Assembly: GCA_900635465.1 (NCBI GenBank)
Contig: LR134135.1
Span: 1,798,001 to 1,862,000, forward strand
Origin: Lelliottia amnigena
Lineage (GTDB): Bacteria; Pseudomonadota; Gammaproteobacteria; Enterobacterales; Enterobacteriaceae
Length of the DNA stretch: 64,000 nucleotides
Reading direction: 5' to 3'
Position numbers and translations under genes: made by a program. The notes beneath the pieces are model-generated. The model had not been told where the DNA came from. It made no database searches and saw only the letters and a list, made by a program, of their open reading frames with translations. Each line of letters opens with the position of its first letter. The first letter of the stretch is position 1. This document shows, piece after piece, positions 10,953 to 20,611 of this stretch.

Positions 10953-10991
10953 TTTTTACTCCTCTGTGATCTCACCGCGTATAACCACAAA

Positions 10992-11027
10992 TGGATAATG
11001 GTTTATCCAGCTTAATAACCCTATAAT
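10992..11027 (+). promoter_or_regulatory. Predicted fdn-operon promoter with overlapping palindrome
   Basis: A perfect -10 box TATAAT lies at 11022-11027, 42 bases before the fdnG-like ATG. The region of the -35 element (about 10999-11004) is poor (TGGTTT) and sits in the middle of a perfect palindrome, TGGATAA-TGGT-TTATCCA, at 10992-11009. A weak -35 covered by a palindrome suggests a regulator site. No match to FNR, NarL or ModE consensus was found by eye. Confidence 0.5.
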
Positions 11028-11068: not shown

Positions 11069-14000
11069 ATGGAGTTTAGCCGGAGGCAGTTCTTTAAGAT
11101 CTGCGCGGGCGGTATGGCAGGAACCACTGTTGCATCTCTCGGATTTTTATCATCTTTTTCCGCGCTCGCGGAAACACGTCAATACAAACTCTTAAAAGCA
11201 AAAGAGACGCGTAATAACTGTACATACTGCTCGGTTGGCTGCGGCATGATCATGTATAGCCTCGGCGACGATGCCAAAAACGTCAAAGAAAGTATCTATC
11301 ACGTCGAAGGCGACGCGGATCATCCGGTCAGCCGGGGTTCACTTTGCCCGAAAGGGGCAGGGGTACTCGATTACATCCACAGTGAGACCCGCCTGCTGTA
11401 TCCCGAATACCGCGCGCCGGGGTCTGATAAATGGCAGCGTATTTCATGGGACGACGCCATCGGCCGTATTGCCCGTCTGATGAAAGCGGATCGTGACGCC
11501 AATTTTATCGAAAAGAACGCCCAAGGGCTGACGGTCAACCGCTGGACAACCACGGGCATGCTCTGTTCGTCGGCGGCCAGCAATGAAACCGGTATTCTCG
11601 ACGGAAAATTTGCCCGCGCGCTGGGCATGGTGGCGATCGACTGTCAGGCACGTTTGTGCCACGGTCCAACCGTTGCCGCCCTGGCACCGACCTTTGGTCG
11701 CGGGGCGATGACCAATAACTGGGTTGATATTAAAAACGCCAACGTGGTGTTGATCATGGGCGGTAACGCCGCGGAAGCCCATCCGGTCGGCTTTAAATGG
11801 GTCGTTGAAGCGCAGACCAAAAACGACGCCACGGTGGTGGTGGTGGATCCACGCTTTAACCGCAGCGCGGCGGTTGCCGATCTTTATGCGCCCATCCGTG
11901 CCGGTTCAGACACCGCTTTCCTGCTGGGGGCCATTCGCTATCTGATTGCGCATGACGCCATCCAGCACGAATACGTCCGTGCCTACACCAATGCCAGCCT
12001 GATTATTCGCGACGACTATGCGTTCGATGACGGTCTGTTCAGCGGCTATGACGCTGAAAAGCGTCAGTACGATAAATCGAGCTGGTTCTATCAACTGGAC
12101 GCGCAGGGCCACGTGCAGCGTGACGATACGCTCAGCCACCCGCGCTGCGTCTGGAATCTGCTTAAAGCGCACGTCGATCGCTATACGCCAGAGATGGTGA
12201 ACCGTCTGTGCGGAACGTCGATTGATGATTTCAACCGCATTTGCGCGATCCTGGCCAGCACCAGCGTACCGGATCGCACGGCGACAATCTTGTACGCGCT
12301 CGGCTGGACGCACCACACGGCGGGCGCACAGATCATCCGCGCGGCGGGCATGTTGCAACTGCTGCTCGGCAATATCGGGATGGCAGGCGGTGGCGTCAAC
12401 GCGCTGCGCGGCCACTCCAATATTCAGGGCTACACCGATCTGGGGTTGCTCTCAACCAATCTGCCGGGCTACATGCCGCTGCCGTCCGAAAAGCAGCCGG
12501 ATTATCAGACCTATATCTCGCAGATCACCCCGCCGTCGCTGGGGCTTAACGAAGTGAACTACTGGCAAAACACGCCGAAGTTCTTTATCAGCATGATGAA
12601 AAGCTTCTGGGGTGAACATGCCACGGCAGACAACAACTGGGGCTACGACTGGCTGCCGAAATGGGATCGTCTGTATGACGTGATGACCCAGGCCAAGCTG
12701 ATGCTCGACGGGAAAATCAATGGTTACATCGTTCAGGGCTTTAACCCGCTGGCGGCGTTCCCGGATAAGAACAAATCGTCCCGGGCGCTCTCGAAGCTCA
12801 AATACATGGTGGTTATCGATCCGCTGGTCACCGAGTCATCGACCTTCTGGCAGCATCACGGCGAAATGAACGACGTTAATCCGGCAGATATCCAGACCGA
12901 AGTCTTCCGTCTGCCATCATCCTGTTTTGCGGAAGAAGACGGTTCCATTGCCAACTCGGGCCGCTGGCTGCAATGGCACTGGGCGGCCGCTGAGCCACCG
13001 GGTGAAGCGATGCACGACGGCAAAATTCTGGGCCGCCTGTTTACGCGCCTGCGCGAACTCTATCAGGCCGAAGGCGGGGCGAACCCGGCGCCGGTGCTGA
13101 ACATGTCGTGGGATTACAAAAATCCCCGCGATCCGCATCCGGAAGAGATTGCCCGCGAAGCCAACGGTATGGCGCTGGTGGATCTGTTTGATGACAAAGG
13201 CCAGCTGGTGGCGAAAAAAGGCCAGCAGCTCAGCAGTTTTGCGCAGCTACGCGATGACGGCACCACCAGCAGCTTCTGCTGGGTGTACTGCGGAAGCTGG
13301 ACTGAGCAAGGCAACCAGATGGCGAACCGCGATAACAGCGATCCGTACGGACTGGGCTGTACGCCAGGCTGGGCGTGGTCGTGGCCGGCGAACCGTCGCA
13401 TTCTCTACAACCGCGCCTCTGCCGATGTGGCCGGGAAACCCTGGGACGCCAAACGTGCTTTGCTGCACTGGGATGGCAAAAAATGGACCGGTCAGGACGT
13501 GGCGGATTACAACGCGTCGGCACCGGGCAGCAACGTCGGGCCGTTTATCATGAATCCAGAAGGGGTGGCGCGCCTGTTCTCCATCGACAAGATGAACGAC
13601 GGCCCGTTCCCGGAACATTATGAACCGATTGAATCGCCGATTGGCACCAACCCGCTGCATCCGAATGTGATCTCCAGCCCCGTCGCACGCATCTTCAAGG
13701 AAGACCTGCCGAATATGGGCAAAGCCGATGACTTCCCGTATGTCGCTACCACCTATTCAATCACCGAGCTGTTCCGTCACTGGACCAAACATGCGCGGCT
13801 CAACGCGATTGCCCAGCCGGATCAGTTTGTCGAAATTGGCGAAGCGCTGGCGCAAGAGAAGGGCATTGTCGCCGGGGACGAAGTGAAAGTGATGTCGAAA
13901 CGTGGCTTTATCAAAGCGAAAGCGGTGGTCACCAAACGCCTGCAAACCCTGACCATTGACGGACGTAAGGTCAACACCGTGGGCATTCCGTGTCACTGGG

Positions 14001-14119
14001 GCTTTGAGGGGGCGACGCGTAAAGGCTTCCTGGCGAATACGTTGACGCCCTCCGTGGGCGACGCCAACTCGCAGACGCCGGAGTACAAGGCGTTTTTAGT
14101 CGACATCGAGAAGGCGTAA
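11069..14119 (+). CDS. fdnG: Formate dehydrogenase-N-type alpha subunit, Cys form
   Basis: A 1016-residue membrane-associated formate dehydrogenase catalytic subunit closely resembling E. coli FdnG/FdoG. It has a twin-arginine signal (SRRQFF, residues 4-9), a [4Fe-4S] cluster bound by C51, C54, C58 and C93, and molybdopterin-binding domains through to the C-terminus (EYKAFLVDIEKA). The Mo ligand that is selenocysteine (UGA) in E. coli is an ordinary Cys197 (TGC, 11657-11659) followed by His198 in ARLCHGPTVA. The reading frame has no internal stop. It is first in an operon with beta and gamma subunits and should oxidise formate in the periplasm, passing electrons to quinone. Confidence 0.93.
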   Translation: MEFSRRQFFKICAGGMAGTTVASLGFLSSFSALAETRQYKLLKAKETRNNCTYCSVGCGMIMYSLGDDAKNVKESIYHVEGDADHPVSRGSLCPKGAGVLDYIHSETRLLYPEYRAPGSDKWQRISWDDAIGRIARLMKADRDANFIEKNAQGLTVNRWTTTGMLCSSAASNETGILDGKFARALGMVAIDCQARLCHGPTVAALAPTFGRGAMTNNWVDIKNANVVLIMGGNAAEAHPVGFKWVVEAQTKNDATVVVVDPRFNRSAAVADLYAPIRAGSDTAFLLGAIRYLIAHDAIQHEYVRAYTNASLIIRDDYAFDDGLFSGYDAEKRQYDKSSWFYQLDAQGHVQRDDTLSHPRCVWNLLKAHVDRYTPEMVNRLCGTSIDDFNRICAILASTSVPDRTATILYALGWTHHTAGAQIIRAAGMLQLLLGNIGMAGGGVNALRGHSNIQGYTDLGLLSTNLPGYMPLPSEKQPDYQTYISQITPPSLGLNEVNYWQNTPKFFISMMKSFWGEHATADNNWGYDWLPKWDRLYDVMTQAKLMLDGKINGYIVQGFNPLAAFPDKNKSSRALSKLKYMVVIDPLVTESSTFWQHHGEMNDVNPADIQTEVFRLPSSCFAEEDGSIANSGRWLQWHWAAAEPPGEAMHDGKILGRLFTRLRELYQAEGGANPAPVLNMSWDYKNPRDPHPEEIAREANGMALVDLFDDKGQLVAKKGQQLSSFAQLRDDGTTSSFCWVYCGSWTEQGNQMANRDNSDPYGLGCTPGWAWSWPANRRILYNRASADVAGKPWDAKRALLHWDGKKWTGQDVADYNASAPGSNVGPFIMNPEGVARLFSIDKMNDGPFPEHYEPIESPIGTNPLHPNVISSPVARIFKEDLPNMGKADDFPYVATTYSITELFRHWTKHARLNAIAQPDQFVEIGEALAQEKGIVAGDEVKVMSKRGFIKAKAVVTKRLQTLTIDGRKVNTVGIPCHWGFEGATRKGFLANTLTPSVGDANSQTPEYKAFLVDIEKA

Positions 14120-14131
14120 GGGAGGCCACGT

Positions 14132-15019
14132 ATGTCCATGCAATCACAAGATATTATCAAGCGTTCGGCCACCAACGGCTTCACGCCTCCGCCCCAGGCG
14201 CGGGACTTCAAAACCGAGGTCGCGAAGCTTATCGATGTCTCAACCTGCATCGGCTGTAAAGGTTGTCAGGTCGCCTGTTCCGAATGGAATGATATTCGCG
14301 ATGAAGTGGGGGTGTGCGAAGGCGTGTACGACAATCCGATGGATTTGACGGCCAAATCCTGGACGGTGATGCGCTTTAGCGAAACCACGCAAAACAACAA
14401 GCTGGAGTGGCTGATCCGCAAGGACGGCTGCATGCACTGCGCGGATCCGGGCTGTCTCAAGGCCTGCCCGTCTGCCGGGGCGATTATCCAGTATGCCAAC
14501 GGGATTGTGGATTTTCAGTCCGAGCACTGCATCGGTTGCGGATACTGCATCGCCGGCTGTCCGTTCAACATTCCCCGCCTGAATCCTGACGATAACCGCG
14601 TCTACAAATGTACGTTGTGCGTGGATCGCGTGACCGTCGGCCAGGAACCGGCGTGCGTCAAAACGTGTCCGACCGGCGCGATTCATTTCGGCAGCAAAAA
14701 AGAGATGCTGGAGATGGGGGAGACGCGCGTGGCGCAGCTCAAAAAACGCGGCTATGCGCATGCGGGCGTTTACAACCCGCAGGGTGTGGGCGGCACGCAT
14801 GTAATGTACGTGTTGCACCATGCCGACCAGCCGGAGCTGTATCACAATCTGCCAAACGATCCGAAAATCGACGTCCCGGTCAACCTGTGGAAAGGCATTC
14901 TGAAGCCGCTCTCTGCAGCCGGATTTATCGCCACGTTTGCCGGACTGATTTACCACTATATCGGTGTGGGGCCAAACAAAGAGACGGACGACGATGAAGA
15001 GGAGAACGATCATGAGTAA
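14132..15019 (+). CDS. fdnH: Formate dehydrogenase beta subunit (Fe-S)
   Basis: A 295-residue ferredoxin-like subunit carrying four [4Fe-4S] clusters. Cys groups are at 39/42/45/49, 100/103/108/112, 133/136/139/143 and 160/163/175/179, and a single C-terminal membrane helix lies at about 252-274 before an acidic tail. It conducts electrons from the alpha subunit to the haem-b subunit, as in FdnH/FdoH. It starts 12 bases after the alpha gene with GGGAGGCCACGT upstream, and overlaps the gamma gene by eight bases. It presumably crosses the membrane with alpha by the Tat route. Confidence 0.94.
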
Positions 15020-15650
15020 GAGCAAAATGATCCTGCGCACGAAGTTTATCGATCGCGCCTGTCACTGGACGGTAGTGATCTGCTTCTTCCTGGTCTCTCT
15101 CTCCGGGATTGCGCTCTTTTTCCCGACGCTTCAGTGGCTCACTCAGACCTTCGGCACACCGCAAATGGGGCGTATTCTGCATCCGTTTTTTGGCGTACTG
15201 ATATTCTTTGCGCTGATGTTTATGTTTGTGCGTTTCGTGCATCACAACATTCCGGATAAACAGGATCTGCCCTGGATAAAAGGGATTGTTGAAGTGCTGA
15301 AAGGCAACGAACACAAAGTGGCGGACGTCGGCAAATATAACGCCGGACAGAAAATGATGTTCTGGAGCATTATGAGCATGATTTTTGTGCTGCTGGCGAC
15401 GGGCGTGATTATCTGGCGTCCCTATTTTGCCCATTATTTCCCGATGACGGTGGTGCGCTGGAGTCTGTTAATTCATGCCACGGCGGCGATTATTTTGATC
15501 CACGCCATCCTGATCCATATGTATATGGCGTTCTGGGTGAAAGGGTCGGTCAAGGGAATGATTGAAGGGAAGGTGAGCCGTCGTTGGGCGAAGAAACACC
15601 ATCCACGCTGGTATCGCGAGGTCGAAGCCAAAGAGCAAAACAAAGAGTAA
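15012..15650 (+). CDS. fdnI: Formate dehydrogenase gamma subunit (cytochrome b556)
   Basis: A 212-residue four-helix membrane cytochrome of the FdnI/FdoI family. His residues in DRACHW (N-terminal), VRFVHHN, LIHATAA and HAILIHMY fit the two haem-b sites and quinone site of the family. The ATG at 15012 overlaps the beta gene and gives the usual length; an open frame extending to 14964 is inside fdnH. It anchors the complex and reduces menaquinone or ubiquinone on the cytoplasmic side. A shared terminator separates it from the convergent fdhF-like gene. Confidence 0.94.
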
Positions 15651-15711: not shown

Positions 15712-17862
15712 CTAAACGTTCACCGCACTGATTAACCGTGATTTCATCGACTGATAGGCCGTCGCGGCATAATCTTCCGCCCAACGCTGATCGTCGATAG
15801 CCTCAAGCTGCACCGCACAATATTTGGTTTCGGGCGTTTTGGAAATCGGATCGAGGTTATCCTGGGTCAGTTCATTGCACGCCCCAATCCACCACTGATA
15901 GGTCATGTAAACCGCACCGGCGTTAATGCGCTCACTGACGCTGGCACGGGTAATCACTTTCCCGCGGCGCGAACGCACCCACACCAGTTGTCCATCCGCA
16001 ATGCCCAACGCGTCGGCATCTGCCGGGTGAATATGTACGCGCCCCGGTTCATCGGCCAGACTTTGCAACGCAGCGCAGTTACCGGTCATCGAGCGGCAGG
16101 AGTAATGTCCGACTTCACGCACGGTGCAGAGTACCAGCGGATAATCCAGGTCCGGCACTTCGGCAGGTGCGCGCCACGGTGCGGCGAACAGCTGACCTTT
16201 GCCGCTCGGCGTATCGAACTGATTATCTTTGTACAGGTACGGCGTGCCTGGGTGATCCAGCGTCGGACATGGCCACTGAATATGACCCATCTCGCCCATT
16301 TTTTCGTAGGTGACACCGTAAAACAGCGGGCACAGCTCGCGCATTTCGTCCCAGATTTGCTGGTTAGAATCGTAATGCATCGGATAACCCATCTCGCTGG
16401 CCAGCAAACTGATGATCTCCCAGTCGCGCTTCACGTTGCCGGTGGCATCGATCGCCTTGCCAAAACGCTGGAATCCGCGATCGGCGCAGGTGAAAACCCC
16501 GCCGTGCTCGCCCCAGGACGTCGCGGGCAGCAGCACGTCCGCCACTTCCGCCGTTTTGGTCATGAAGATATCTTGCACCACAACGAAATCGAGAGCCTCA
16601 AAACCGCTGCGCACCAGGCCCAGATCGGCCTCGGTCTGAAGCGGATCTTCGCCCATGATGTAATAGGCTTTCACCTTGCCTTCCAGCGCCAGATGCGGGA
16701 CTTCGGTGATGCGAACGCCTGGCTGATCGTCCATTTTGGTGGCGTCGATTCCCCACGCGTCGGCAAATTTCTGACGTATTTCAGGATCGGTGACATCCTG
16801 ATAGCCCGGGAACATGTTGGGCAGGACGCCCATATCACACGCACCCTGCACGTTGTTTTGACCGCGAACCGGGCCGACGCCAACGGCAGGACGACCGAGA
16901 TTCCCGGTCAGCAGCGCCAGGCTGGAAAGCCCTTTTACCACATCCACCGCTTGTCCAAACTGCGTCACGCCCATGCCCCACATCACCGTGGCAGACGGCG
17001 CGGCCGCAAAGGTGCGCATTGCCTGACGCACGTCCCGCGCGGGAATGCCGGTCAGATGCTCAACCTTTTCTGGGGCGTAATCTTTGACGGTCTCACGATA
17101 GGCATCGAGCCCCTCAGCAAAGCGTGCGACGTAGGTTTTGTCGTACAACTCCTCTTCCAGCAGGACGTAGCCGAACGCATTAACCAGCGCCATATTGCTG
17201 CCGTTTTTGAGCGGTAAATGTTGATCGGCGATGCGGGCGGTTTCGATACGACGCGGGTCGCAAACGATGATTTTCGCGCCGTTCTGACGCGCTTTCAGCA
17301 CGCGGCGCGCCACGATAGGGTGAGAATCTGCACAGTTATAGCCAAACACCAGCAGGCATTTTGAGTTCTCGATATCGTTAATTGAGTTACTCATCGCCCC
17401 GTTCCCGAGGGTTTGCTGCAAACCGGCAACAGACGGGCCGTGACATACGCGCGCGCAGCAATCCACATTGTTGGTGTTCAGGACGGCGCGAGCAAATTTC
17501 TGCATCACATAGTTGGTTTCGTTGCCCGTTCCGCGTGATGACCCGGTGGTCATAATGGATCGTGGGCCATAGTGTTCTTTGATCGTTTTCAGTTTATTCG
17601 CGGTGTAACGGATCGCCTCTACCCAGGTGACGGGCGTAAAGGCGTCACCTTTGTTGTAGCGGATCATCGGTTGGGTCAGGCGAGGGGTGAGGAGTCGGGT
17701 ATCGTTCAGAAAATCCCAGCCGTAAAAACCTTTCAGGCACAGCGTACCCTGGTTCGTGACGCCATCGGCGGCTTCGGCGCGGATAATACGATTGTTTTCG
17801 ACAACGAGATTTAATTTACAGCCTGCACCGCAGTAAGGGCAGACGCTTGCGACTTTTTTCAT
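15712..17862 (-). CDS. fdhF: Formate dehydrogenase-H-type molybdoenzyme, Cys form
   Basis: A 716-residue cytosolic molybdopterin oxidoreductase aligned end to end with E. coli FdhF. It has a [4Fe-4S] cluster bound by C8, C11, C15 and C42 and conserved blocks TTGSSRGTGNETNYVMQKFARA, REVGHYSCRSMTGNCAAL and MTYQWWIGACNELT. The residue that is Sec140 in E. coli is Cys140 here (TGT, read from 17445 to 17443) in ARVCHGPSVAG. The ATG at 17862 was chosen over an in-frame TTG one codon upstream because it matches FdhF length. A sigma-54-type promoter lies at 17928-17943. No hydrogenase-3 genes are nearby, so its electron partner is unknown. Confidence 0.92.
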   Translation of the reverse strand: MKKVASVCPYCGAGCKLNLVVENNRIIRAEAADGVTNQGTLCLKGFYGWDFLNDTRLLTPRLTQPMIRYNKGDAFTPVTWVEAIRYTANKLKTIKEHYGPRSIMTTGSSRGTGNETNYVMQKFARAVLNTNNVDCCARVCHGPSVAGLQQTLGNGAMSNSINDIENSKCLLVFGYNCADSHPIVARRVLKARQNGAKIIVCDPRRIETARIADQHLPLKNGSNMALVNAFGYVLLEEELYDKTYVARFAEGLDAYRETVKDYAPEKVEHLTGIPARDVRQAMRTFAAAPSATVMWGMGVTQFGQAVDVVKGLSSLALLTGNLGRPAVGVGPVRGQNNVQGACDMGVLPNMFPGYQDVTDPEIRQKFADAWGIDATKMDDQPGVRITEVPHLALEGKVKAYYIMGEDPLQTEADLGLVRSGFEALDFVVVQDIFMTKTAEVADVLLPATSWGEHGGVFTCADRGFQRFGKAIDATGNVKRDWEIISLLASEMGYPMHYDSNQQIWDEMRELCPLFYGVTYEKMGEMGHIQWPCPTLDHPGTPYLYKDNQFDTPSGKGQLFAAPWRAPAEVPDLDYPLVLCTVREVGHYSCRSMTGNCAALQSLADEPGRVHIHPADADALGIADGQLVWVRSRRGKVITRASVSERINAGAVYMTYQWWIGACNELTQDNLDPISKTPETKYCAVQLEAIDDQRWAEDYAATAYQSMKSRLISAVNV

Positions 17863-17927: not shown

Positions 17928-17943
17928 AGCAGAATCCATGCCA
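17928..17943 (-). promoter_or_regulatory. Predicted sigma-54 promoter of fdhF-like gene
   Basis: The minus strand reads TGGCATG-GATT-CTGCT, with GG at -24 and GC at -12 in the exact spacing of the RpoN consensus TGGCACR-N4-TTGCW. It lies about 66 bases before the ATG. E. coli fdhF is transcribed by RpoN with FhlA, so an equivalent formate-dependent control is inferred. A full FhlA site was not seen; only a CATTTC-like half site is present just upstream. Confidence 0.72.
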
Positions 17944-17999: not shown

Positions 18000-18041
18000 C
18001 GTGTCATCGTCATGATGCTCGACACATTTGACGATGACACG
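18000..18041. repeat. Long perfect hairpin between fdhF and ariR
   Basis: CGTGTCATCGTCA (18000-18012) and TGACGATGACACG (18029-18041) are a perfect 13-base inverted repeat separated by 16 bases. There is no T run on either side. It lies 24 bases after the ariR stop and upstream of the fdhF promoter, so it could end or stabilise the ariR transcript or bind a protein. Confidence 0.7.
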
Positions 18042-18064: not shown

Positions 18065-18343
18065 TTAAATATCATCCATTGTGTAACCCACAACGATTTC
18101 CAGCGTTTTGCGAATCACGTCGGCGCGAACGACATCGCTCGTCGACTCCAGCGCATGAATGAGCCAAAGAATGATCGCTTTGTTGGAGACATATCCATCG
18201 TTTACCAGCACATCACGCACCGCAGCGTTAAAAACAGCGGACTCATCCGCAAACCGATCGCCTGCGTTACGAAAATATTCTGATACTGCGCTATCGAAGT
18301 TTACTGTATTAAATTCGGGTTGAACCTGAATATTCTGTCTCAT
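18065..18343 (-). CDS. ariR: AriR/YmgB-family biofilm and acid-resistance regulator
   Basis: A 92-residue member of the AriR/YmgB family. The C-terminal half, KAIILWLIHALESTSD then VVRADVIRKTLEIVVGYTMDDI, matches the E. coli YmgB dimerisation helices closely. E. coli AriR is a small helical protein that represses biofilm and supports acid resistance, induced through BluR/BluF. Here it is the last gene of the ycgZ-ymgA-ariR operon; ymgC is absent. The GGTGAGAATAA sequence upstream supports the ATG at 18343. Confidence 0.83.
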   Translation of the reverse strand: MRQNIQVQPEFNTVNFDSAVSEYFRNAGDRFADESAVFNAAVRDVLVNDGYVSNKAIILWLIHALESTSDVVRADVIRKTLEIVVGYTMDDI

Positions 18344-18379: not shown

Positions 18380-18700
18380 TCAATGTATTTTCTTTGGATC
18401 GGCAGGCTTTCCGTTGCTGAATAAAGGAACAACGTTGTTATTATTCATCCTTTGAGATCCCTCTCGATTCGCTGGGTTTTGCACGGCTCTGTAATGTTTA
18501 AACGCCACATCATTGCCGCTTATCTCTGCAATAACCGCTGCTATGGCTTCCCGCCGCTCAGGATCCTTTTCATGAGCTTTCATATTCCGTAATCTTTGCG
18601 TTAATGCATGCGTATTGATGGGGCCGTTCTCTTTCAAAAGCGAAAGAACGGCTTCACCAATAAGCTCGTCAACTATTTTGTCTACACCACGTCTATTCAT
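18380..18700 (-). CDS. ymgA: YmgA-like two-component connector protein
   Basis: A 106-residue protein whose first 70 residues (ending AIAAVIAEISG) are helical and related in pattern to YmgA and AriR; the remaining tail is low in hydrophobics (NNNNVVPLFSNGKPADPKKIH). Position between ycgZ and ariR on the same strand supports the YmgA call. In E. coli YmgA and YmgB act through the Rcs phosphorelay to raise colanic acid and lower curli. The spacing to ariR is 36 bases, fitting one operon. Identity to YmgA is partial, so the name is by family and synteny. Confidence 0.68.
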   Translation of the reverse strand: MNRRGVDKIVDELIGEAVLSLLKENGPINTHALTQRLRNMKAHEKDPERREAIAAVIAEISGNDVAFKHYRAVQNPANREGSQRMNNNNVVPLFSNGKPADPKKIH

Positions 18701-19257: not shown

Positions 19258-19389
19258 GGCGGAAAAACGGATCAAAAAAACACCTAAATCCTTGAGCTGT
19301 AAATTATTTGTTAAGCAACTAATATGGTATAACAAGCGATATTCACACCATTTGCATGTGTGACTCACTCAAAAACACCCTGGAAAATC

Positions 19390-20611
19390 ATGCTCACAAC
19401 CATTATTTACCGCAGCCATATCTGCGCGGACGTTCCAGTTAAATCTCTGGAAAAGATGGTAGAGGCTGCCGCGGATAAGAACCGGCACTCTGACGTCACA
19501 GGGATTTTATTATTCAACGGAATGCACTTTTTCCAGCTGCTGGAAGGGCCAGAAGAGAGCGTCAGGCGTATCTACGAGCATATTTGCCAGGACACCCGGC
19601 ACTACAATCTGGTGGAGTTGCTCTATGACTACGGTCCATCAAGACGATTTGGCCATGTAGGAATGGAACTCTTTGATCTGAGGCGCTATGACAGGGAAGA
19701 AGTGCTTCAGCAGGTGTTGAATAAAGGGACAACGCGCTATCAGCTGACGTACAACGATCGTGCGCTACAGTTCTTTCGAACCTTTGTTGAAGCCACTGAA
19801 AAAGAAAACTATTTCGAGATTCCGCCGGGCGATTCGTGGGATTTTTATCCCCGAAGAGGATGCGTTTTCACGCCAGCCTCAAGTGATCGCCAAAGGGGCA
19901 GACTGTAGCTTTGCGTTTCAGCCTATTGTTGACCCGTTGACTCAACAAGTTGTCTCCTGGGAAGCGCTGCTGCGTACGCCGTCTGGCGAGTCACCGGTCA
20001 CTTATTTTGCGTCGCTGACCGGGAATGCGATTTACGAATCTGATCTGAAAAGCAAACAGGTGGCGCTGTCGATGGCGAGTGCGCTGGGCCTTGAAGGCCA
20101 GACGTTATCCCTGAATCTGCTGCCGATGACGCTGGTCAATGTGCCTGATGCCGTCGATTTCCTGCTGAAAGAAATTGCTGCCAATGGTCTGGTGCCTGAG
20201 CAAATCATTATCGAATTCACCGAAAGTGAAGTGATTTCGCGGCTCACCGAATTCAAAGTGGCGGTCCGACAGCTCAAGAGCGCCGGCATCAGCGTGGCGA
20301 TCGATCACTTTGGAGCTGGTTTTGCGGGCTTGCTGCTGCTGGCGCAATTCCAGCCAGATCGTATCAAGATCAACCGCGAACTGGTTGCGGATGTGCATAA
20401 AAGCGGCCCGCGCCAGGCGATTGTCCAGGCCATCATCAAATGCTGCGCCTCACTGGAAATCCAGTTTTGCGCCGTGGGCGTTGAAAAAGCGGAAGAGTGG
20501 ATGTGGCTTGAATCGGCTGGCATTTCTGAGTTTCAGGGGCATCTTTTTGCCAGCCCAAAACTGGGAGGCATTCCGCCGATTGCCTGGCCTGAAAAGAAAG
20601 TCGATTTCTAA
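19390..20611 (+). pseudogene. bluF: bluF (BLUF-EAL blue-light antirepressor), frameshifted
   Basis: Two overlapping frames together encode BluF. The first (from ATG 19390) gives the BLUF flavin domain MLTTIIYRSHI...FFQLLEGPEE and runs to EIPPGDSW; the second continues IFIPEEDAF, then FAFQPIVDPL and the EAL domain to IAWPEKKVDF. The switch is at GGG 19838-19840: removing one G gives SWIFIP, matching E. coli SWLFIA, and a 406-residue protein. The EAL domain retains an EALLR sequence but has DHFGAGFAG in place of DDFG, fitting the E. coli protein that binds BluR rather than hydrolysing c-di-GMP. As given, only the BLUF part would be made. Confidence 0.85.

Follow-up and report, generated by a model that had tools for sequence, protein, structure and literature searches.

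A second, cysteine-type formate dehydrogenase H in Lelliottia amnigena, probably co-regulated with the selenocysteine enzyme of the same genome

In this study, a gene for a formate dehydrogenase of the H class (fdhF), with cysteine at the selenocysteine position, was identified in a 64,000-nucleotide stretch of the Lelliottia amnigena genome, hereafter the window (C1:1798001-1862000 of a 4.47 Mb single-contig genome). The gene is intact and constrained, it is not peculiar to one strain, orthologues being found across Enterobacterales, and it falls within an enzyme type already known, the Cys formate dehydrogenase H (FDH-H) of formate hydrogenlyase. With a probability of about 0.8, we read it as a second, selenium-independent FDH-H of formate hydrogenlyase, which would be co-regulated with the Sec enzyme of the same genome, probably by FhlA. 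The features of the window on which the argument draws are as follows.

11069..14119, forward strand: Cys-type FDH-N alpha subunit (fdnG class) with the active-site Cys, convergent neighbour of fdhF (TIGR01553, 1533 bits)
14132..15019, forward strand: FDH beta subunit (TIGR01582, 467 bits)
15009..15650, forward strand: FDH-N gamma subunit, cytochrome b (NF007558 (PRK10179), 455 bits)
15712..17862, reverse strand: Cys-type fdhF (formate dehydrogenase H class), 716 aa
17443..17445, reverse strand: codon 140 of fdhF, TGT (Cys), the selenocysteine position, as read in the sequence
17928..17943, reverse strand: sigma54-type promoter TGGCAYN6TGCW, 81 nt before the fdhF start codon
18001..18040, reverse strand: larger inverted repeat around the upstream palindromic site, as read in the sequence
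18019..18033, reverse strand: palindromic upstream site CGTCAN4TGWCGA, a probable FhlA site, binding being predicted

The coding region and its ancestry

The fdhF reading frame begins with ATG and has an in-frame TTG one codon upstream. Its product scored 903.5 bits against the equivalog model TIGR01591 (formate dehydrogenase alpha; cut-off 666.25), and E. coli FDH-H (1AA6) aligned with it end to end over the full length (1098 bits, 64.9% identity), the selenocysteine of 1AA6, printed X, falling on Cys140. The classical E. coli enzyme has selenocysteine at 140; since the codon here is TGT, the window protein is a Cys FDH-H and not a selenoprotein, and the sequence, the 1AA6 alignment and TIGR01591 together confirm the earlier note, which had described an FdhF-type enzyme with Cys at the Sec140 position. 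In the alignment, the cluster cysteines 8, 11, 15 and 42, Lys44, His141 and Arg333 are all kept, residues that we take to form the metal site and to hold the Fe4S4 cluster. Position 140 was Cys in 30 of 30 near loci, the window's own among them, and in all 79 motif matches among 80 named loci, the best 80 of at least 593 relatives. Against 29 orthologues, dN/dS ranged from 0.024 to 0.050 (median 0.030; many dS values exceed 1 and the ratio is rough), and a value of about 0.03 points to strong constraint, that is purifying selection.

A recent Sec-to-Cys conversion of the window gene was considered and rejected, because its product is closer to the Cys orthologues of other genera (80-85% identity to those of Serratia, Pectobacterium and Klebsiella) than to the Sec FdhF paralogue of its own genome (only 64%), and because the Cys clade is old. 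In a quick maximum-likelihood tree of 73 rows, made without bootstrap and with two Sec rows of a different family as outgroup, 47 scored Cys rows and one unscored row formed one clade (SH-aLRT 100), which holds the window, Serratia and Pectobacterium genes and has a five-row Sec group as its sister (99); the tree contains no row from L176, L177 or L178, and L129, mis-scored in the motif search, was excluded from the state counts. Given this one well-supported clade, the Cys lineage of the window gene is an old one. Another two Cys rows, L170 (genome G109) and L171 (G093), lie within the E. coli-type Sec fdhF clade and thus represent separate conversions, which are probably recent; both genomes keep SelB. 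A remnant SECIS was also considered and not taken as evidence, a short apical hairpin being possible in the window segment and none or a weak one in most other Cys orthologues shown; the comparison of folding energies is uninformative, since even the two Sec segments were no more stable than shuffled sequences.

A promoter pattern shared with the selenocysteine enzyme

The main support for co-regulation comes from the region upstream of fdhF. The element TGGCAYN6TGCW was found 67-120 nt before the start codon in 30 of 30 window-type (orphan) loci compared, window included, and the palindrome lay upstream of it in all 30, an arrangement resembling the region before E. coli fdhF. Within the window, the sigma54 element alone gave 2 matches against 0.89 expected (weak evidence) and the palindrome alone 1 match against 0.13 expected (modest evidence), so that the strength of the control pattern comes from its combination and repetition across genomes rather than from single parts. 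The inverted repeat at 18001..18040 could also terminate an upstream transcript.

An initial composite pattern matched twice in the window's own genome, upstream of the Sec fdhF and of the Cys fdhF, with 0 matches for the control. The final pattern, CGWCAN4TGWCGA-N60-90-TGGCAYN6TGC, in which one palindrome position was relaxed to W after the alternative letter had appeared in four orthologues, was applied to 60 genomes with the reversed pattern as control, and gave 86 matches in 48 of them, against 1 for the control. Each of the 86 preceded a same-strand fdhF by no more than 200 nt: 45 of the 66 Sec genes and 41 of the 41 window-type Cys genes carried the pattern, leaving 21 Sec genes and all 11 Cys genes of an 82-84% identity type without it; two genomes with partial genes (G033 and G055) were counted as neither Cys nor Sec in this tally. 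Since the pattern was designed from the two sites of the window's own genome, the result for that genome is circular, and since the earlier comparison already covered 30 of the 41 Cys upstream regions, the fresh test consists of 11 Cys and 44 Sec regions. For some members of the 82-84% type, L046 and L052 among them, a hydN-like gene precedes fdhF, so that the promoter may be located in front of the hydN-like gene. A cruder sigma54 scan of the named loci (best 80 of at least 593 relatives) gave a match in 25 of 25 orphan loci, and before hydN in 9 of the 55 hydN-bearing loci, the hydN starts being roughly set.

The sigma54 site of Salmonella fdhF is given as TGGCATAAAACATGCATA, with FhlA listed as activator (PMC3844500), and FhlA has been reported to bind upstream of fdhF and hyc (PMC11291172). 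FhlA is probably the activator of window fdhF. In the open-access PMC literature searched, we found no description of the orphan Cys fdhF of Enterobacter, of its promoter shared with the Sec enzyme, or of Cys-only genomes with hycE.

Selenium machinery and the state of the assembly

The Sec fdhF of the same genome (C1:332603-334732, 64% identity to the window protein) contains one in-frame TGA, and a Sec gene of the FDH-N/O type at C1:4380433 likewise has one TGA. SelB scored above its curated cut-off in 60 of 60 genomes of the genus, this genome included. The earlier note had proposed a setting in which selenium or SelB is limiting; with SelB in every genus genome and two Sec formate dehydrogenases in this one, a loss of Sec decoding did not hold up. 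Sec fdhF was also present in 49 of the 52 genus genomes that carry a full-length Cys fdhF. Among 149 genomes of the family, Cys fdhF (at least 74% identity, Cys here meaning a match without in-frame stop) was found in 34, of which 27 had Sec fdhF and 29 had SelB; as a consistency check, none of the 14 counted SelB-lacking family genomes with a formate dehydrogenase had a Sec gene. Genome G087 (49% complete, with one broken FDH-N type match and no SelB match) was excluded from the family tallies.

In 10 of the 60 genus genomes, the Sec copy lies at most about 6 kb from the Cys gene. L096 and L117 have an operon-like order hydN - fdhF(Cys) - hypF - (hoxN-like) - fdhF(Sec), the L117 gene between hypF and fdhF(Sec) being unread, and similar layouts with Cys and Sec fdhF side by side were seen in L044, L045, L046 and L052.

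The FDH-N/O type gives two matches in this genome versus three in each of the six other genomes in which the two Cys genes are adjacent. A loss of the Sec fdnG was considered on this count and judged to be an assembly problem, not a replacement by the Cys fdnG. In this assembly hypF, hycF, hycG, fdnG, bluF and several unrelated genes are frame-split, with intact copies in relatives, and in fdnG, the one gene inspected, nearly all gap differences from G004 are extra single bases. The fdnG break pattern looks like consensus or sequencing error in an indel-prone assembly, thus gene loss was not read from such breaks; because hypF, hycF and hycG are frame-broken in the assembly, the function of formate hydrogenlyase in this strain is not assured. 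Frame breaks in both formate/hydrogenase and unrelated genes were seen at L041 and L154 of the same genome (C1:2176000-2190000 and 3375000-3394900). Within the window, a gene at 19360-20611, presumably of BLUF/EAL type, runs over two frames, where L048 and L057 have intact single reading frames of about 406 aa.

Hydrogenase-3 as the probable electron acceptor

As the earlier note observed, no hycBCDEFG genes adjoin window fdhF, and the hydN/hypF linkage is absent from the window locus as well. The hyc genes lie elsewhere: about 1.57 Mb from window fdhF, the same genome has hycE (93% match) with hycABCD, hydN, a hoxN-like gene and fhlA nearby, hydN standing together with hypF near hyc. HycE was detected in 59 of the 60 genus genomes, in two as a partial match. 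Three genomes, G008, G022 and G043, have Cys fdhF together with hycE (93-94% identity) but no Sec fdhF, and a DNA search of them with the yjcO-fdhF(Sec) block returned nothing beyond the Cys gene and short stray hits; they are 96-100% complete, G022 and G043 being drafts of about 20 and 70 contigs and G008 an assembly of 2 contigs. The electron acceptor of window FdhF is therefore probably hydrogenase-3. The question of the acceptor, which the earlier note had left undecided, thus leans towards formate hydrogenlyase through the shared promoter pattern, the linkage of many orthologues to hydN, hypF, hyc or hyf, and the presence of hycE in Cys-only genomes.

It might alternatively be argued that window FdhF is a cytoplasmic formate dehydrogenase feeding a HydN-like ferredoxin or some other Fe-S partner instead of hydrogenase-3. 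The gene does stand alone without hyc neighbours, and in the E. coli structure FdhF Glu621 contacts HycF Arg122, the same source allowing that FdhF may interact with other proteins (PMC9474812). The Glu621 position is Ala in window FdhF, and Glu in 2 of 49 Cys rows and 9 of 23 Sec rows; this comparison of one published contact, at a position variable in both groups, leans slightly against docking to HycF. However, the window gene and Sec fdhF have a promoter pattern in common, many orthologues are embedded in hyc or hyf clusters that include hydN and hypF, hycE is kept in Cys-only genomes, and the genetics of Pectobacterium (PMC7384014) also speaks for hydrogenase, so that we consider another acceptor unlikely. 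Even less probable is that the protein is a paralogue, either relaxed or altered in its substrate, that has little activity on formate. The Sec-to-Cys form of E. coli FDH-H is quoted as about 20-fold less active (PMC6004506), and ECA1507, the second FdhF homologue of P. atrosepticum, is reported to bring only a slight increase in H2 (PMC7384014), but dN/dS of about 0.03, the conservation of every catalytic residue checked and the H2 production supported by the Pectobacterium-type enzyme (PMC7384014) all argue against such a paralogue.

Distribution and comparison with known systems

Full-length Cys fdhF was found in 52 of 60 genus genomes (41 at 90-100% and 11 at 82-84% identity) and partial copies in 2; in the other 6 it was not found. 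Of the 80 named orthologous loci, the best 80 of at least 593 relatives, 55 had a detectable hydN, and many of these show the order hyc or hyf - hydN - fdhF(Cys) - hypF - hoxN-like, or a variation on it; hydN was not detected in the remaining 25, orphans whose surroundings are of three kinds, Enterobacter/Lelliottia/Huaxiibacter (8), Klebsiella/Raoultella-like (7) and Citrobacter (10). The orphan position of window fdhF is presumably secondary. In a plasmid collection, FdhF proteins 80-90% identical to the window protein occur on nine records, H6-H14 (Klebsiella, Citrobacter and Pantoea), Cys and Sec forms not being distinguished; one of these records, H8, is of chromosome size (5.37 Mb).

The closest functional precedent comes from Pectobacterium atrosepticum, in which most of the H2 production depends on a Cys FdhF whose gene stands with hypF and hoxN next to hyf, H2 production being about 500-fold less without this FdhF (PMC7384014). 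That protein, ECA1250 of formate hydrogenlyase-2, has Cys at 140 as window FdhF does; its identity to E. coli FdhF is given as 65% in the discussion of the paper and printed as 85% in its results (PMC7384014). The P. peruviense orthologue, from a matching hyf-hydN-fdhF-hypF-hoxN locus, is 83.5% identical to the window protein, and, judged through this orthologue rather than through ECA1250 itself, ECA1250 and window FdhF are probably of the same lineage. The settings differ, however: ECA1250 stands beside hyf (Hyd-4) in a host which is reported to lack selenocysteine machinery genes (PMC7384014), whereas window fdhF stands alone, with Hyd-3 elsewhere and selB and Sec fdhF in the genome.

The hydN-fdhF(Cys) unit of Serratia liquefaciens (PMC6004506) also has a Cys FdhF like that of the window, but there the gene goes with hydN, which does not adjoin window fdhF. 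Serratia orthologues in L133, L134 and L137 follow hyc-hydN. In L134, from Serratia plymuthica, Cys fdhF comes after hyc and hydN, and a hycE mutant of another S. plymuthica strain loses stationary-phase deacidification (PMC4340222). Compared with E. coli FDH-H, window FdhF is similar in its catalytic and cluster residues and in the layout of the sigma54 and upstream sites, but has Cys for Sec140, and the apical hairpin that follows the Sec codon in two Sec genes is inconsistent in Cys orthologues.

Pairs of Sec and Cys isoenzymes switched by selenium are known, as for the formate dehydrogenases of Treponema primitia. Methanococcus maripaludis also keeps both versions in one genome, as here, and switches them by selenium, FdhA being described as an exception without Cys isoform (PMC11097638). 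The Sec/Cys pair described here has a common formate-type promoter pattern.

The adjoining Cys-type fdnGHI

Both Cys formate dehydrogenase genes of the window, fdhF and fdnG, are intact, and the earlier note was right that a Cys FDH-N (fdnGHI, 11069-15650, forward strand) adjoins and converges with Cys fdhF, in a block absent from the ydiH-suf junction of E. coli, at least in K-12, whose ydiH-sufA junction holds rydB alone. The window order ydiJ-ydiH-suf agrees with K-12; the names ydiJ, ydiI, ydiH, bluF, bluR, yqjD, ymg/ari and 'hoxN-like' are those that we presume for these genes. Sequence similar to window fdhF occurs in 5,369 of 5,426 E. coli genomes, every best place being at 60-80% DNA identity; no near-identical copy was seen among the 5,426, and the five matches listed are ordinary fdhF. 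Two small genes upstream of fdhF (18065-18343 and 18380-18700) matched no NCBIfam model.

The earlier note had further proposed that the two Cys genes form a selected selenium-free unit, and co-occurrence was counted for this pair. Adjacency extends beyond this strain: a Cys fdnG of 93-100% identity adjoins Cys fdhF in 7 of 60 genus genomes (G000, G004, G015, G023, G031, G035 and G058), which indicates that the arrangement has lasted through speciation and speaks for a unit. An association beyond chance was not found. In the family sample (149 genomes, of which the 79 with a formate dehydrogenase match were counted), 10 genomes have both Cys genes, 24 and 13 one only and 32 neither (Fisher p = 1.0); among 65 SelB-positive family genomes p = 0.52, and within the genus p = 0.58, counting as having both an eighth genome, G056, which has a 73% relative on another contig. 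Moreover, 45 further genus genomes carry Cys fdhF without Cys fdnG beside it, and of the nine other genera with both genes, eight have them on separate contigs and one has them at a distance of about 80 kb. At the variable ydiI/ydiH-fdhF junction, occupied by fdnGHI in the window, L048, L049 and L051 have what we take to be a fimbrial-type cluster, and L050 has almost nothing between ydiH/ydiI and fdhF. The upstream elements of fdnG and fdhF also differ, and selB and Sec formate dehydrogenases are present. A selected unit is therefore very improbable; since the two Cys genes are independent and the junction is empty or otherwise filled in other species, the adjacency is best explained by a single insertion next to a gene of greater age. 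Upstream of Cys fdnG, at 10980-11006, the window has TATAACCACAAATGGATAATGGTTTAT, near-identical in 4 of 4 loci compared and followed by a TATAAT box; this element presumably resembles an IscR type-2 site.

A selenium-buffered formate hydrogenlyase

Taken as a second FDH-H of formate hydrogenlyase, the window enzyme would oxidise formate in the cytoplasm at a Mo-bisMGD centre in which Cys ligates the metal, and electrons would pass through its [4Fe-4S] cluster to the hydrogenase-3 complex encoded elsewhere in the genome, with putative docking to HycB/HycF. It would be made under the same formate-responsive sigma54 control as the Sec enzyme, probably through FhlA. Its ancestry would lie in the old Cys lineage often found in hydN-fdhF-hypF-hoxN clusters, the gene standing in this genus mostly alone between ydiH and suf with a promoter of its own, and its physiological use may be insurance when selenium is short.

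More tentatively, and at somewhat less than even odds, we propose that Enterobacter and its relatives have a selenium-buffered formate hydrogenlyase, in which Sec and Cys FDH-H respond to one formate signal through a common FhlA/sigma54 promoter design without a selenium switch, and that in G008, G022 and G043 the Cys form has displaced the Sec form in FHL-1 while Sec decoding and Sec FDH-N/O were kept. While the Cys FDH-H of formate hydrogenlyase is itself already known, the dual Sec/Cys regulon is the interesting part, as it offers a clean natural setting in which to ask why bacteria able to make selenoproteins also retain a Cys form of one of these enzymes, although that form is expected to be slower. 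Promoter, signal and partner complex all seem to be common to the Sec and Cys forms, so that one could measure directly how H2 output depends on the supply of selenium, and a selenium-free FDH-H from genomes with hydrogenase-3 (FHL-1) may be useful for formate-to-hydrogen systems without selenium machinery.
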